Positions 1 through 5,120 of a DNA stretch of 5,120 nucleotides are shown here, piece after piece. The notes beneath the pieces were generated by a model. It did no database searches. It saw nothing but the letters and a program-made list of their open reading frames with translations, and was not told the DNA's origin. The translations under genes were made by a program, and so were the position numbers. Origin of the DNA: Candidatus Rokuibacteriota bacterium (GTDB lineage: Bacteria > Methylomirabilota > Methylomirabilia > Rokubacteriales > CSP1-6); contig JACOVB010000210.1 of assembly GCA_016177555.1 (NCBI GenBank), forward strand, positions 1 to 5,120, read 5' to 3'. Position 1 is the stretch's first letter. Every line of letters begins with the position of its first letter.

Positions 1-1152
1 GCCCTCCACAACGCGAATCGCTTCGGTATCGCCGGCCTCTTCGGGCCGCTCCGCGGCCGCTACCGTGGGGCCTACGCCACGGTGGGCAATCTCGTCAGCG
101 CCTCCCCGCTCGCCTACGCCTGCTCGCAGATCCCGGTGGGTTTCCTCGCCGACCGGCTCGACCCGCGGCGGCTGATCCTGCTCGGCACCGGGGGCGCGAC
201 GGTGGCGGGCGTGGTCTTCGCGCTGACCGACAGCTACGGCGTCGGCCTCGCCGCGCGCCTGGTGGCCGGCGTCTGTGGGGCGATGATCTACACGCCGGCC
301 ATGACCTTCGGCATCGGGTCATTCCCGGCCGCGAAGCGCGGCGCCGCGATAGGCGTCGCCTACACCGGAGTGGGGCTTGGCACCGCGACGTCGCTGGCCG
401 CCCTCCCCGTCCTGGTGGACTGGATCGGGCTCAGCGGGGCGCTCCTCTGTCTCGCGGGCTTCGCCGCCTTCATGACCGTCCTGACCCCGTTCGGCCTGGC
501 GATGCGGCGGAAGGAGCGCCCGGTTGCCCGGTCCACGCCGCGGAGCCTGCTCAGGCAGGGTGGGTTCCTGTGCCTCCTCGGGTTCAGCTTCTTCGGGTTC
601 TTCAACACCTACGCGCTCCTGACCTGGTTGCCCGCGTACCTGAGCGACGGCCTCGGCGTCAGCCCGTCGCGCGCGGGTGCCCTGGCCGCCCTCGTGAACA
701 TCACCATGACGGTGTCGTCGCCACTCGTGGGCAAGCTCTCGGACGTGGTCAGAAGCCGCCGCCTCATCCTCCAGATCGGCGCGCTCTGCGGCCTCGCCGC
801 CTTCGCCATCCTCGCCACCACGCGCGCGGTGCCGCTGGCCCTCGTGGCGGGCGTGCTGGCCGGCATCGCCTCCTCGATGACCACCGCCCCGATGATAGTC
901 TTCGCCGGCGAGCGCTTCGGCGTGGGCTCGGCGGGGCTGGCCGTCGGCATGGTGAACGGGATCGGCCAGACCGGGTCCTCACTCTCCGGCATCGTCTTCG
1001 GCCCGCTGCTCGACGCCACCGGGAGCTTCGGCTCGATCTGGTGGTCGTGCATCCCCATCGGAGTGGTCCGCTGCGCGCTGCTCCAGATGATCGGCGACGA
1101 GGCGAGCCCGGATCCCGGCACCGCGGCGGCGGAGGAGCCCCGGACGTCTTGA
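1..1152 (+). CDS. MFS transporter, 5'-truncated by window edge
   Basis: This is a major facilitator superfamily permease, a secondary transporter of the inner membrane. The frame is open from base 1, so the start lies upstream; the GTG at 82 is internal because the preceding 27 codons read as natural MFS sequence (NRFGIAGLFGPL). 383 residues are visible, close to a full 12-helix protein of about 400. The loop 2-3 signature (motif A) is seen as GFLADRLDPRR at visible residues 47-57, and its degenerate repeat GKLSDVVRSRR at 244-254 marks the second half. An arginine in the fourth helix region (ARLVAGVCG, R86) is also typical. A basic central loop (MRRKERPVARS) separates the two six-helix halves. 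The C-terminus is short and acidic. Substrate cannot be told from sequence; organic acid or drug transport are both possible. Family certain, function unknown. Confidence 0.93.
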   Translation, partial: ALHNANRFGIAGLFGPLRGRYRGAYATVGNLVSASPLAYACSQIPVGFLADRLDPRRLILLGTGGATVAGVVFALTDSYGVGLAARLVAGVCGAMIYTPAMTFGIGSFPAAKRGAAIGVAYTGVGLGTATSLAALPVLVDWIGLSGALLCLAGFAAFMTVLTPFGLAMRRKERPVARSTPRSLLRQGGFLCLLGFSFFGFFNTYALLTWLPAYLSDGLGVSPSRAGALAALVNITMTVSSPLVGKLSDVVRSRRLILQIGALCGLAAFAILATTRAVPLALVAGVLAGIASSMTTAPMIVFAGERFGVGSAGLAVGMVNGIGQTGSSLSGIVFGPLLDATGSFGSIWWSCIPIGVVRCALLQMIGDEASPDPGTAAAEEPRTS

Positions 1153-1177
1153 GCGTTCCCCGGTCGGCTGCTATACT
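1149..1177 (+). promoter_or_regulatory. sigma70-type promoter (TTGAGC - 17 nt - TATACT)
   Basis: The -35 box TTGAGC at 1149-1154 (4/6 to consensus) overlaps the MFS stop codon. A 17-base spacer leads to the -10 box TATACT at 1172-1177 (5/6). TGC just before the -10 box gives an extended -10 (TGnTATACT). An AT-rich hexamer at ideal spacing is conspicuous in such GC-rich DNA. Transcription would start near 1184, about 48 bases before the Shine-Dalgarno-coupled frame at 1232. It probably once served the ketopantoate reductase gene and would now transcribe dppBC. The motif match is seen directly; activity is inferred. Confidence 0.65.
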
Positions 1178-1193
1178 CCGCCCCTCCCGGGGA
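1157..1193. repeat. 7-bp inverted repeat flanking the -10 box
   Basis: TCCCCGG at 1157-1163 is the reverse complement of CCGGGGA at 1187-1193, with 23 bases between them that include the -10 box TATACT. It could be an operator for a dimeric regulator or a weak terminator for the MFS gene. It is short and made almost only of G and C, so chance occurrence is quite possible. Confidence 0.25.
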
Positions 1194-1231: not shown

Positions 1232-1435
1232 ATCAGCATCACGATCTACGGCGCGGGCGCGATCGGCGGCCTCATCGGCGCGTATCTCGCGAGGGCGGGC
1301 GAGGACGCGCGCTTCGTCGACCCGATGGCCGAGCACGTCGAGGCCATGAGCCACGCCATCTCCCGAAAGCTCCAGGGGTCGGGCGGGCGGCGCGACGAGT
1401 ACCCGATCTTCACGGGCGCGTCGATCCAGGCCTAG
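1232..1435 (+). pseudogene. Chimeric relic: ketopantoate reductase N-terminus joined to solute-binding protein C-terminus
   Basis: This is an open frame of 67 codons ending in TAG at 1433-1435. Residues 3-30 read ITIYGAGAIGG...FVD, the GxGxxG dinucleotide-binding Rossmann strand-turn-helix of 2-dehydropantoate 2-reductase (PanE/ApbA), and DPMAEHVEAM (30-39) continues that family pattern. Homology then stops; the family is about 300 residues long and the catalytic domain is absent. From residue 42 to the stop (1355-1432) the sequence aligns without gaps to the last 26 residues of the binding protein encoded at 3506-5041. I count 12 identities, including GGRRDEY, and about 9 conservative changes. 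The junction therefore lies near 1346-1357 and is in frame. No ATG, GTG or TTG lies in frame between the promoter and the homologous start; ATC at 1232 sits where the start should be. dppB begins three bases after the stop in the same frame. It may still be translated as a leader through a rare ATC start, but enzyme activity is impossible. Confidence 0.8.
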
Positions 1436-1438
1436 GGA

Positions 1439-2362
1439 GTGCTCGGCTACCTCGCCTGGCGCAGCCTCCACTCGCTGCTGTTGCTGTGGCTGGTCACGGT
1501 GGTGGTCTTCGGACTGCTGCACCTGACGCCCGGAGACCCCGCCAGCCTCATGCTGGGCGAACAGGCCACCCCGGAGCAGATCCGCGACCTCCGGCACGCG
1601 CTCGGTCTCGACGAGCCCCTGGTCACCCAGTACGCGTGGTTCCTGGCCCACGCGGTCCGGGGCGACTTCGGCGCGTCGATCCGAGCACAGCGACCGGCCC
1701 TGGAGGTGGTGCTGGAGCGGCTCCCCGCCACCCTGCTCCTGACCGCTGGGGCCTTCATCTTCGCGCTTTGCGTGGGACTGCCGATCGGCGTGATCTCGGC
1801 GGTCAAGCGCCTGAGCCTGTGGGACCACGGCTCCATGGCGCTGGCCCTCATGGGCCAGTCGATGCCCGTGTTCTGGCTGGGCCTGATGCTCATCGTCGTG
1901 TTCTCCGTGCACCTGCGCTGGCTCCCGGTGTCGGGCGCGGGAGGCCCCGAGCACCTGGTGCTGCCCGCGGTGACGCTCGGCACCTTCCTGATCGGGCTCA
2001 TCATCCGCCTCACCCGCTCGAGCATGCTGGACGTGCTGGGACAGGACTACGTCCGCACCGCGCGGGCCAAGGGGCTGGCCGAGCGGGCGGTGATCGTGCG
2101 CCACGCGCTCCGGAACGCCCTGATCCCGGTGGTGACCCTGCTGGGGCTACAGCTCGGGATGCTCCTCGGGGGCGCCGTCATCACCGAGACCGTCTTCGCC
2201 TGGCCGGGCGTGGGCATGGTGACCGTGACCGCCATCTACCAGCACGACTACCCGGTGGTGCAGTGCGCGGTGTTCATCTCCGCCGTCCTGGTGGTCTCGA
2301 TCAACTGGGCGGTCGACGTGCTCTATCATGTCCTCGACCCGCGCATCCGGGCCTCGGACTAG
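1439..2362 (+). CDS. dppB: ABC transporter permease, DppB/OppB-type
   Basis: This is an inner-membrane permease subunit of a peptide/nickel/opine-class ABC importer; with a DppC-type partner it forms the transmembrane channel. The 307-residue length matches OppB-type proteins. The N-terminus MLGYLAWRSL followed by a hydrophobic helix (about residues 10-29) and TPGDPA (30-35) is the classic family opening and supports the GTG at 1439. The next in-frame Met would remove helix 1. The cytoplasmic EAA-type loop that docks on the ATPase is DYVRTARAKGL at 203-213, followed by RHALRNALIPV. The C-terminus YHVLDPRIR is also typical. AGGGA abuts the start codon too closely to be a good ribosome site, so translation may be coupled to the chimeric frame that ends three bases upstream. 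The substrate is not determinable; peptides, nickel, glutathione and opines are all known for the family. Confidence 0.95.
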   Translation: MLGYLAWRSLHSLLLLWLVTVVVFGLLHLTPGDPASLMLGEQATPEQIRDLRHALGLDEPLVTQYAWFLAHAVRGDFGASIRAQRPALEVVLERLPATLLLTAGAFIFALCVGLPIGVISAVKRLSLWDHGSMALALMGQSMPVFWLGLMLIVVFSVHLRWLPVSGAGGPEHLVLPAVTLGTFLIGLIIRLTRSSMLDVLGQDYVRTARAKGLAERAVIVRHALRNALIPVVTLLGLQLGMLLGGAVITETVFAWPGVGMVTVTAIYQHDYPVVQCAVFISAVLVVSINWAVDVLYHVLDPRIRASD

Positions 2363-2365
2363 CCC

Positions 2366-3250
2366 GTGACCATCGGCGCGCGGGCCGGGCACCGGCGGCG
2401 CCTCCGCCGCTTCTTCCGCCATCGCCTGGCCGTGATCGGCCTCGGGATCATGACGACGGTGGCCGGGCTGGCGCTCTTCGCCGACCACATCGGGCCGCGC
2501 TCCCCGACCGCCCAGCAGATCCTGCTGCGGCTCAAGCCGCCCGGCTTCGCGGATCCCCGCTCCGGGAAGGTCGCCTGGCTCGGCACCGACCATCTGGGCC
2601 GCGACATCCTGAGCCGGATCATCCACGGCAGCCGCGTGTCGCTCGTGATCAGCCTGCCCGCGGTGGTGGTGTCCGCGCTGCTGGGCATGACGCTCGGGCT
2701 CCTGGCCGGCTACCACGGGGGCGCGATCGAGAGCGTCGTGATGCGCTGCGTGGACCTGCAGCTGGCCTTCCCGTTCATCCTGCTCGCGCTCAGCATCGTG
2801 GCGCTCATGGGCCCGTCGCTGCGGAACATCATCATCGTGTTCGCAATCACCACCTGGCCGGTGTACGCGCGCACCACGCGCGGCGTCGTCCTGGCCCTGC
2901 GGGCGCAGGAATTCGTGCAGGCGGCCCGGAGCCTGGGCGCGAGCGACCAGCGCATCCTGTGGCGGCACGTCGCCCCCGGCGTCGTGAGCCCCGTCCTCGT
3001 GCTGGCCTCGTTCGAGGTGGCGCGCATGATCATCCTGGAAGCGGCCCTGGGGTTCCTCGGCCTGGGCGTGCCGCCGCCCACGCCGACCTGGGGGAGCATG
3101 CTCGCGGACGGCCGTGACTACCTGCGCGACGCCTGGTGGATCGCCGCCTTCCCGGGCCTCGCCATCATGCTCACCGCCGCCGGCTCGAACTTCCTGGGCG
3201 ATGGCTTGCGCGACATGCTCGACCCGACGCTCCGCAACGTCGAGGGCTGA
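2366..3250 (+). CDS. dppC: ABC transporter permease, DppC/OppC-type
   Basis: This is the second inner-membrane permease subunit of the same importer, 294 residues long, as usual for DppC. It has an arginine-rich N-terminus (RAGHRRRLRRFFRHR) followed by the first helix (about 21-40), the OppC N-terminal pattern. The family motif GTDHLGRDILSR lies at 73-84, the EAA-type ATPase-contact loop EFVQAARSLGAS starts at 182, and EAALGFLGLGVPPPTPTWG is the conserved late segment. The C-terminus GDGLRDMLDPTLRN is canonical. The GTG start lies three bases after the dppB stop, indicating translational coupling and one operon. No DppD/DppF ATPase gene follows; a convergent gene lies downstream instead. Confidence 0.95.
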   Translation: MTIGARAGHRRRLRRFFRHRLAVIGLGIMTTVAGLALFADHIGPRSPTAQQILLRLKPPGFADPRSGKVAWLGTDHLGRDILSRIIHGSRVSLVISLPAVVVSALLGMTLGLLAGYHGGAIESVVMRCVDLQLAFPFILLALSIVALMGPSLRNIIIVFAITTWPVYARTTRGVVLALRAQEFVQAARSLGASDQRILWRHVAPGVVSPVLVLASFEVARMIILEAALGFLGLGVPPPTPTWGSMLADGRDYLRDAWWIAAFPGLAIMLTAAGSNFLGDGLRDMLDPTLRNVEG

Positions 3251-3315: not shown

Positions 3316-3422
3316 GGAGTGAGCAGACGCCGGCGGCCGGTGCCGCCGGCGGCAGCCGGGCGCTACGCGTCGAGCGAGCAATCGATCTGCTTGGCCGAGA
3401 GCGTCTGCATCGTGCTCACTCC
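3316..3422. repeat. Long-range imperfect inverted repeat in the convergent intergenic region
   Basis: The left arm 3316-3330 (GGAGTGAGCAGACGC) pairs completely with the right arm 3401-3422. GCGTCT (3401-3406) pairs with 3325-3330 and GCTCACTCC (3414-3422) with 3316-3324, leaving seven right-arm bases (3407-3413) unpaired. The 70 bases between the arms hold a compact hairpin. The intergenic region 3251-3505 contains no credible coding sequence; besides its hairpins I see nothing else in it. This may be a bidirectional termination structure or the remnant of a palindromic repeat element. Confidence 0.45.
3328..3351. terminator. 10-bp perfect GC hairpin with CGGT tetraloop
   Basis: CGCCGGCGGC (3328-3337) is perfectly complementary to GCCGCCGGCG (3342-3351), with loop CGGT. 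It lies between convergent genes, where a bidirectional terminator would be useful. It lacks a T-tract on either side, so termination is inferred from position and stem strength only. Its first three bases also belong to the arm of the larger inverted repeat, so the two can coexist only if the stem base is trimmed. Confidence 0.45.
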
Positions 3423-3479: not shown

Positions 3480-3510
3480 CCTGACGCTGCCGACGCGCCC
3501 TCGCGTCAGG
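3480..3510 (-). terminator. Hairpin over the binding-protein stop codon (candidate terminator)
   Basis: CCTGACGC (3480-3487) is complementary to GCGTCAGG (3503-3510), an 8-bp perfect stem with a 15-base loop, including the TGA stop on the minus strand. A competing 6-bp stem with tetraloop (GACGCG 3492-3497 with CGCGTC 3502-3507) is also possible. No T-tract follows on the minus strand, so this is a weak candidate. Confidence 0.3.
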
Positions 3511-5041
3511 CGCCGAGGGTCGCGTCGTGGAAGAGGAGATACTCGTCGCGGCGGCCCCCGGCCCACTTGAGCCGCTTGTTGACGGCGTTGATGTCGGGCT
3601 GCTCCAGGAGCCAGATCCACGGGCACTCGTCCCAGACGATCTCCTGCGCCCGGAGGTAGGCGGCCCGGACCCGCGCCTCGTCGAAGCTCTCGCGGGCCTC
3701 GTTGATCAGGCGGTCGACCTCCGGATTCGCGTAGAGGGTGCGCTTGACCGCGGTGGAGTAGAAGTGGTCACCCATGAGCTGGTCCGGCTCGCCGGTGACG
3801 ACGCCCCAGCCGAACATGAAGCCGTCGTACTTCGACTTCTCGTATTTCGTCACCTCGTTCACGAAGCTGCTCCACAGCGGACTCTCGAACTTGACCTGGA
3901 GGCCGACGGCTTCCAGATAGCCGGCGATCGCCTCGCCCATCTGCTTGTCGAGCAGGTACCGGCCATTCGGCACACCAAGGAAGAACGGCGCGCCCGCCGC
4001 CCCTGTCTCGGCGAGGAGCTTCTTCGCTCGCTCGGGGTCGTAGCGGTAGGGCGGCAGGCTCGGATGCGACCCGAACACGGCATCGGGCAGCGGCGCCTTC
4101 GCGATCGGCGCCAGCCCGCCCATGAGGCCCTTGCTGAGGGCCTCCCGGTCGATGGCGTAGTTGAGCGCCTGGCGAACCCGCTTGTCGTTGAAGGGCTTCC
4201 GATCTGTTCGCAGGGCGATGAACGTCACACGGTTGGTCGGCGAGGTGATCACCCGGAGATTGGGATTGGCGCGCAGCCGCGGGATCTGGTCCGGCGGGAC
4301 GTTGTTGACGACCATGACCTCGCCCGCCTCGAGCGCGGCGAGCCGGGTGCCGTTCTCCGGGATGAACCGAAAGCGGATCTGCGAGAACGCGGGCTTCTTG
4401 CCCCAGTATCCCGGATGCGCCTGCATGACCACGTGCTGGCCCGGCCGGTACTCGGCGACCTTCATCGCGCCGGTGCCCACCGGGTTGGTGGGGAAGCGAT
4501 CACCCAGCTCCCGGAAGGCCCGCGGAGAGAGCGCCATCGTCGAGGTGGAGTTGCGCAGGAGCGGCCGGCTTGCGCGCTCGGTGACGAGCTCGATGGTGTG
4601 TGGGTCCTGGATGCGATACTCGCGAATCACGCCGATGCGATTCTTCCAGGGCGATCGCGAGGTCGGCGCAGCGTACTGCTCCAGCGAGAACTTGACGGAC
4701 TCCGCGGTGAAGTCTTCGCCGTTGTGGAACTTGACGCCCTTGCGCAGGTGCCACCGGAGCACCGTGGGCGATGCCTGCTCCCACCTGGTCACGAGCCACG
4801 GAATGGGATTCGCCCGCTCGTCGCGGAACACGAATCCGTCGAACATGTGGGAGAAGATCGACCAGCCAGGGCCGCCGGCCTCGACGCGAGGGTCGAGGTG
4901 GCCCGGGTCGAGCGACAGGCCGACGACGAGCTCGGGCGCTTGCGCCCGGGCGGGGCGGAGCGGGAGTGCGGTCAGCGCTGCGCCGCCGGCCGCGGCGAGC
5001 TTCAGGATCTCTCGTCGAGTCACACGCGCTTGTGCCTTCAT
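3506..5041 (-). CDS. ABC transporter family 5 solute-binding protein, Tat-type signal
   Basis: This is a periplasmic binding protein of the DppA/OppA/NikA family (SBP_bac_5), which captures substrate for a DppBC-type importer. It has 511 residues, normal for the family. The signal peptide has the twin-arginine pattern TRREILK (8-14), a hydrophobic stretch rich in Ala/Gly/Leu, and likely cleavage after ARA (31-33). There is no lipobox Cys, so it is predicted to be soluble rather than a lipoprotein. Family landmarks are KGVKFHNGEDFTAESVKFSL (101-120), NPVGTGA (186-192), YWGKKP (212-217) and KRVRQALNYAIDREAL (287-302). The ATG at 5041 is preceded by GGAG ten bases upstream (5055-5052), and no other start is in frame within the window. 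It overlaps the upstream frame by ATGA, implying a minus-strand operon. It converges on dppC, an uncommon arrangement, so partnership with those permeases is not proven. The ligand is unknown. Confidence 0.95.
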   Translation of the reverse strand: MKAQARVTRREILKLAAAGGAALTALPLRPARAQAPELVVGLSLDPGHLDPRVEAGGPGWSIFSHMFDGFVFRDERANPIPWLVTRWEQASPTVLRWHLRKGVKFHNGEDFTAESVKFSLEQYAAPTSRSPWKNRIGVIREYRIQDPHTIELVTERASRPLLRNSTSTMALSPRAFRELGDRFPTNPVGTGAMKVAEYRPGQHVVMQAHPGYWGKKPAFSQIRFRFIPENGTRLAALEAGEVMVVNNVPPDQIPRLRANPNLRVITSPTNRVTFIALRTDRKPFNDKRVRQALNYAIDREALSKGLMGGLAPIAKAPLPDAVFGSHPSLPPYRYDPERAKKLLAETGAAGAPFFLGVPNGRYLLDKQMGEAIAGYLEAVGLQVKFESPLWSSFVNEVTKYEKSKYDGFMFGWGVVTGEPDQLMGDHFYSTAVKRTLYANPEVDRLINEARESFDEARVRAAYLRAQEIVWDECPWIWLLEQPDINAVNKRLKWAGGRRDEYLLFHDATLGA

Positions 5042-5120
5042 GCTGTCTCTTCTCCAGCCGCTCGGCGCGGGCCGATCGCGGATCCGTACAGTTGCTGGCG
5101 TCGCGTCTCGAGCTCGTCGA
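5038..5120 (-). CDS. Probable C-terminal end of an unidentified upstream gene
   Basis: On the minus strand one frame reads 26 residues from the window edge, DELETRRQQLYGSAIGPRR and then AAGEETA, and stops at TGA (5040-5038). The stop overlaps the ATG of the solute-binding protein in the form ATGA, a common sign of translational coupling. The amino acid composition looks natural for a charged protein tail. The other two frames are also open over these 79 bases, so the call rests on the ATGA overlap and the lack of a promoter-like sequence. I do not recognise the family. Confidence 0.4.
   Translation of the reverse strand, partial: DELETRRQQLYGSAIGPRRAAGEETA

Follow-up and report, generated by a model that had tools for sequence, protein, structure and literature searches.

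A short reading frame at positions 1232-1435 of the window (the whole 5,120-nucleotide stretch analysed here) is, with good probability, an inherited deletion scar: it would head a dppBC operon from the Rokubacteria group, in which a promoter and the remaining tail of a solute-binding protein (SBP) gene would keep dppBC expressed. The 67-residue frame fuses the start of a PanE/ApbA-type reductase to the end of an SBP, and the chimera itself would have no enzymatic or binding role.

The chimeric frame and its surroundings

The window begins on the plus strand with an MFS transporter gene (1-1152; PF07690, 2.1e-50), which extends beyond the window at its 5' end. The TGA that ends this gene (1150-1152) overlaps the -35 element of a sigma-70-like promoter (1149-1177, plus strand; TTGAGC-17-TATACT with TG before the -10; one found, against a mean of 0.0 in shuffles). 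On the same strand follow a Shine-Dalgarno sequence AGGAGG (1222-1227), 4 nt upstream of codon 1 of the frame, the 39-codon 5' stub of a reductase gene with ATC at its start codon (1232-1348), the join at codons 40-41 (about 1349-1354), and the final 27 codons of a family-5 SBP gene with their TAG stop (1352-1435, the stop being 1433-1435). A dppB-like permease gene starts with GTG 3 nt past this TAG (1439-2362, plus strand), and a dppC-like one with GTG 3 nt past the TAG of dppB (2366-3250, plus strand). These two BPD_transp_1 permeases in tandem (PF00528, 3.9e-44 and 4.8e-27) are both matched by the Dpp, Nik and Opp profiles of NCBIfam; dppB exceeds the cutoff of Opp2B (358 bits for 350), and dppC scores under their cutoffs. 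Directly upstream of dppB the window holds no intact SBP gene, just the tail; an intact family-5 SBP gene lies convergent with dppBC (3506-5041, minus strand; PF00496, 8e-90). The dppC and SBP genes, which converge, are separated by a stretch that includes an inverted repeat (3323-3356; arms of 15 nt, 4 nt apart), a possible terminator. Rfam found nothing at gathering scores on the window.

For the left part of the frame, the Pfam family PF02558 (ApbA) matches residues 3-42 (E 1.3e-8, 35 bits for a cutoff of 22.2), and the N-terminal Rossmann GxGxxG motif of the PanE/ApbA family is present. The match spans profile positions 1-39 of 150: the full PanE length of roughly 300-350 aa and the C-terminal domain are missing. 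The NCBIfam profile of 2-dehydropantoate 2-reductase likewise matches residues 2-42 (1.2e-7, 31.4 bits, the whole-protein cutoff being 223); full-length panE copies in the loci we fetched measure 310-372 aa.

For the right part, residues 41-67 align ungapped with the C-terminal 27 residues of the SBP encoded in the window itself (12/27 identical, E 3e-7) and, more closely, with those of the full-length SBP P0128 (22/27, E 5e-13). The tail alone matches neither PF00496 nor any other Pfam family, and the 27-codon remnant is recognised through alignment. A search limited to the C-terminus gave six full-length SBPs, two of which, P0128 and P0129, share the window's ending GGRRDEYPIFTGASIQA. The source of the tail is, to judge from these alignments, a P0128-like SBP. 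On the same figures (12/27 against 22/27 for P0128), an origin of the tail as a copy of the convergent SBP gene in the window was rejected; this convergent SBP is 81% identical to P0130 and 67% to P0128.

The sequence-only reading had described an in-frame reductase/SBP chimera directly upstream of dppBC, with a Rossmann start at residues 3-39 and an SBP tail counted by hand as 12 identities in 26. The ApbA match and the tail alignment bear it out; moreover, no one Pfam or NCBIfam family covers the whole 67-residue frame, whereas such a family would have spoken for a single protein rather than a chimera. To this reading the analysis adds the lost ATG, the promoter at 1149-1177, a second type of join and the missing Shine-Dalgarno site of dppB.

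The join in related proteins and the nearest genome

A protein search with the chimeric frame gave seven proteins, P0001 being identical to the window. The join is present in four of the seven, P0001, P0002, P0003 and P0005, and the other residues around it differ in the latter three; the same join in diverged sequences, which is what a deletion scar should leave, is therefore found in P0002 (90% to the window, 7/76 residues different), P0003 and P0005. By their listed records, P0002 and the DppB P0018 (99%) share a longest contig of 6498 bases and the source jgi, and P0005 and the DppB P0021 (97%) a longest contig of 2480 and the same source; these equal sizes and sources suggest that each pair sits on one contig. 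P0004 and P0006 continue as panE. In the same manner the SBP P0129, with the same tail as the window, and the DppB P0044 (85%) are both listed with a longest contig of 2704 bases and the source lgn. As 2704 bases would just fit an SBP gene and dppB in tandem, an intact SBP-dppB pair may be placed on this contig, from equal size and source alone. P0002, P0003, P0005, P0007, P0129 and P0044 are known from protein letters alone. The first ~100 residues of P0129 are unlike P0128, the remainder being nearly identical, and the protein is either a recombinant or a misassembly.

P0007 presents a second type of join. It reads LIVPRSAAILR and then TYENPEVHAINRKLQW..., i.e. it has a different left partner: VPRSAAILR is what the window's spacer just 3' of the MFS gene, the promoter stretch, encodes in frame 3. 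In P0007 this spacer is joined to YENPEVHAINRKLQW..., that is to ~33 SBP codons. P0007 thus holds SBP codons absent from the window, and is without the panE part that the window keeps. Since neither allele can be derived from the other by deletion, the SBP gene was probably lost at least twice.

The nearest genome came from a DppB scan across 95 genomes belonging to the same phylum as G001 (source of locus L018, Candidatus Rokuibacteriota), with at most 24 candidates scored per genome: G071 alone has a DppB at E 1e-118 or better (88%) among the best 24 candidates per genome. Homologue scans scored the best 24, 20 or 15 candidates for many genomes. A separate scan of genome contigs with DppB returned at least 80 loci, with a best identity of 58% among the matches listed; the 88% relative surfaced in the phylum scan only; a scan of viral contigs found no relatives.

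In G071, contig C421 (7109 bases; locus L082) carries a divergent SDR gene upstream of dppB, and the gap between them contains TTGACC-17-TAGACT, like TTGAGC-17-TATACT in the window. Window positions 1149-1184 agree with the L082 stretch before dppB at 27 of 36 bases, the top placement in both directions (next 23 and 21), for a 36-base stretch picked after the likeness was noticed. Just before dppB, L082 has PMLPVTSVRA-stop where the window has PIFTGASIQA-stop. The two remnants agree at 24 of 36 bases, which none of 200,000 random pairs equalled; over the 27 nt before the TAG alone the score is 16/27, and 295 of 200,000 random pairs were as good. G071 has thus apparently retained the promoter and some ten final SBP codons upstream of dppB, and no part of panE lies between promoter and dppB. 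Contigs C421 and C96 of G071 overlap by 159 bases at 97.5%, and the order in this genome is therefore dppC then the convergent SBP gene, as in the window.

Between the window and G071, dN/dS is 0.11 for dppB (306 codons), 0.135 for dppC (284) and 0.26 for the convergent SBP gene (481): the three genes look constrained, under purifying selection. As all three do, the convergent SBP appears as the natural partner of the permeases, and it is likely the partner of DppBC.

G071 also holds a panE stub of ~25 codons within a 51-aa frame (L115), located upstream of the related convergent SBP gene and adjoining a scaffold gap. The stub of the window matches it at 88% over 76 nt (97.8 bits), and matches the best full-length panE of the fetched loci (L089) at 80% over 111 nt (95.1 bits), so that by score the lead of L115 is small. 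The leader of the window's convergent SBP gene (5042-5120, minus strand) resembles by eye, in an unscored comparison, the stretch that follows the L115 stub (DELETRRQQL against DELERERARRH). This likeness hints at a possible further panE stub upstream of the convergent SBP gene, which would fall just beyond the window edge. The stretch after the L115 stub was also considered as a panE C-terminus, and gave no convincing match to full-length panE.

Other panE stubs were met elsewhere. P0131 has a panE-like start of ~20 codons (71% over 21 residues, E 2.7e-6 at nominal database size, by unfiltered blastp against 30 panE proteins). It gave no Pfam ApbA match, and BLASTP against P0006 returned a 7-residue match only; a proven panE start was therefore rejected, and we regard it as a likely stub. 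Scans with P0131 of three other phyla came out empty, at E 1e-130 for 18 genomes and at 1e-120 for 198 and 398 genomes, and empty answers of this kind show nothing. Eight short-frame panE matches were fetched: seven end at a contig edge and one is a stub (G054:C261; L121, 1399-1746), which ends at about codon 41 and is immediately followed by a D-2-hydroxyacid dehydrogenase gene (PF02826, 1.6e-49). In L085 (G059:C13) a panE start reaches a stop after 61 codons inside the stretch that was fetched, by a frameshift, as a stub or through a poor contig end. Full-length panE is found near dpp-type genes on plasmids of Deinococcus actinosclerus, Alloyangia pacifica and Sagittula. In L125 (CP029777.1), the gene 6159-7112, annotated as a diguanylate cyclase and located between an SBP and a permease gene, is 44% identical to the window DppB over 281 residues; this annotation is likely wrong.

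Origin and use of the frame

In the ancestral order that we infer, the promoter was followed by a panE-like gene (complete or already a stub), an SBP gene, dppB and dppC, and a paralogous SBP gene lay downstream in convergent orientation. A deletion would then have fused panE codon 39/40 to the 27th-last SBP codon and left in place the promoter together with the Shine-Dalgarno site of panE and the final SBP codons. It would have removed most of the genes at the head of the operon and spared what dppB needs, i.e. a promoter and a frame ending at the TAG. The transcription of dppBC would start from the 1149-1177 promoter, and the transporter would use the convergent SBP.

Because of the G071 stub and of the likely stub in P0131, panE may have been truncated before the deletion occurred. 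We estimate that the deletion measured ~2.4 kb with a complete panE and ~1.5 kb with a pre-existing stub, from the 310-372 aa of panE and the 524 aa of P0128. The deletion proposed by the sequence-only reading is upheld in part: a 5' part of a reductase gene is joined to the 3' end of an SBP gene that once stood before dppB, and the loss of an intact reductase is unproven. The figure of at least 2.2 kb given for it is not established, since panE may already have been a stub. As to the gene order it expected in related genomes, the SBP-dppB part can be inferred from the 2704-base contig, and the intact order panE-SBP-dppB was found in none of the loci examined.

How the frame would be used can be approached from the start signals. 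No Shine-Dalgarno 4-mer occurs within 20 nt before dppB in the window or in L082, nor before dppC in the window, and the arrangement TAG-NNN-GTG precedes dppB in both as well as dppC in the window. Genes that lack a ribosome site of their own and begin right behind an upstream stop codon typically have coupled translation. As dppB has no Shine-Dalgarno sequence and lies 3 nt past the TAG, its translation is probably coupled to the upstream frame that ends there. Such coupling between dppB and dppC is not common to G071 and was rejected: dppC of L082 begins 35 nt past the dppB stop with GGAGG ahead, so that the junction differs from that of the window, and the GTG after the L082 dppB stop is out of the dppC frame.

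No stop interrupts the chimeric frame between 1091 and the TAG, and its earliest ATG, GTG or TTG is the ATG at 1325. Codon 1, at 1232, is ATC in the window and I in P0002; it is ATG in L115 and M in P0004, P0006 and P0131. The ATG at 1325 has no ribosome site, and that at 1346 has GAGG just 2 nt ahead. With the ATG of the stub lost, the frame might be used weakly from ATC, or from the ATG at 1325 or 1346; the scar would then act as a coupling frame for dppB, if translated at all.

Another origin for the same arrangement is that recombination or shuffling, rather than the deletion of neighbouring genes, set the 5' end of panE (promoter, ribosome site and first codons) before the SBP remnant. 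We hold this to be unlikely, and it has nevertheless some facts on its side. The intact order panE-SBP-dppB, as said, did not turn up, and panE stubs occur in other contexts (~25 codons in G071, likely ~20 in P0131, ~41 in L121 before the hydroxyacid dehydrogenase gene). The window is also a mosaic: positions 1-1147 are 96.5% identical to G095:C205 (L083) and the similarity stops at 1147, so that different genomes match the window left and right of ~1148, and some event other than a simple deletion may have rearranged it. But the promoter is common to G071, where no panE separates it from dppB, and the G071 stub before the convergent SBP gene shows that panE and this SBP family were once neighbours. 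A further join is to be noted at ~1147-1149, the MFS side resembling G095 and the promoter block from 1149 resembling G071.

It is still less probable, indeed very improbable, that the frame is a functional small fusion, its Rossmann start and SBP tail having been kept as a novel peptide that has its own function. The frame is open in all four clusters with the join, and the last 23 residues show two variable positions among five proteins, P0007 included; recent descent also accounts for this conservation, and about 31% of random 67-codon stretches with the base composition of the window contain no stop, so that the open frame alone is little sign of a gene. Besides, the start is ATC in the window and I in P0002, only the first strand-helix part of the nucleotide-binding fold is present, and no Pfam or NCBIfam family spans the frame.

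An assembly error, merging panE reads with SBP-dppB reads in a metagenome contig, might be evoked from the two genomes matched on either side of ~1148 and from the multi-copy nature of the SBP-type permease and panE families in the phylum, but it is hardly credible since P0002 (with its 7 differences in 76 residues), P0003 and P0005 show the same join in other surroundings; the misassembly that the sequence-only reading had kept as its alternative is thus disfavoured by three diverged clusters.

Returning to the inherited scar, a broader scenario can be put forward tentatively, as possible rather than probable: the SBP gene before dppB would have been lost several times in one lineage, its 3' end being a required cis coupling element, with a switch to the convergent SBP and with the chimeric frame as a leader cistron made of debris. 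Three deletion forms are seen, and each seems to keep the promoter and the last SBP codons up to a stop 3 nt before dppB.

Known systems and significance

Operons of Dpp, Opp and Nik ABC importers are made of SBP, permease B and permease C genes. The window shares the tandem permeases, but the SBP gene normally found before dppB is cut to 27 codons, and the intact one is convergent, 3' of dppC. Compared with the PanE/ApbA family, the first 39 codons are shared, whereas the remaining ~300 are missing and the start is ATC.

Among the papers that our literature searches listed, none concerned this locus and one gave a useful precedent: in Clostridioides difficile, an amino-acid ABC transporter underwent convergent loss of its SBP and ATP-binding genes (PMC5951980). 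Both cases involve an SBP deletion in an ABC importer, repeated and independent in C. difficile and probably so here too, with a paralogous gene set adjacent. By the same account the ATP-binding gene was lost too in C. difficile, and the repetitive structure of the site is thought to have helped. The words “fusion” and “chimeric” are absent from the main text of PMC5951980; what remains ahead of dppB in the window, unlike in the C. difficile locus, is a single frame made of a panE 5' stub and an SBP tail. The repeated loss of an SBP gene beside a paralogous set has thus been reported already, and the window is another example of it, with a clear scar.

Taken with its relatives, the locus displays the pruning of an operon through a series of alleles: one intact and inferred, two with deletions of which neither can yield the other by deletion, and one shorter, each of which seems to preserve the expression signals of the remaining genes. 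It also warns annotators that what looks like a fusion gene may be debris left at the head of an operon. The series leads to a testable idea, namely that what persists of a lost gene is determined by translational coupling.
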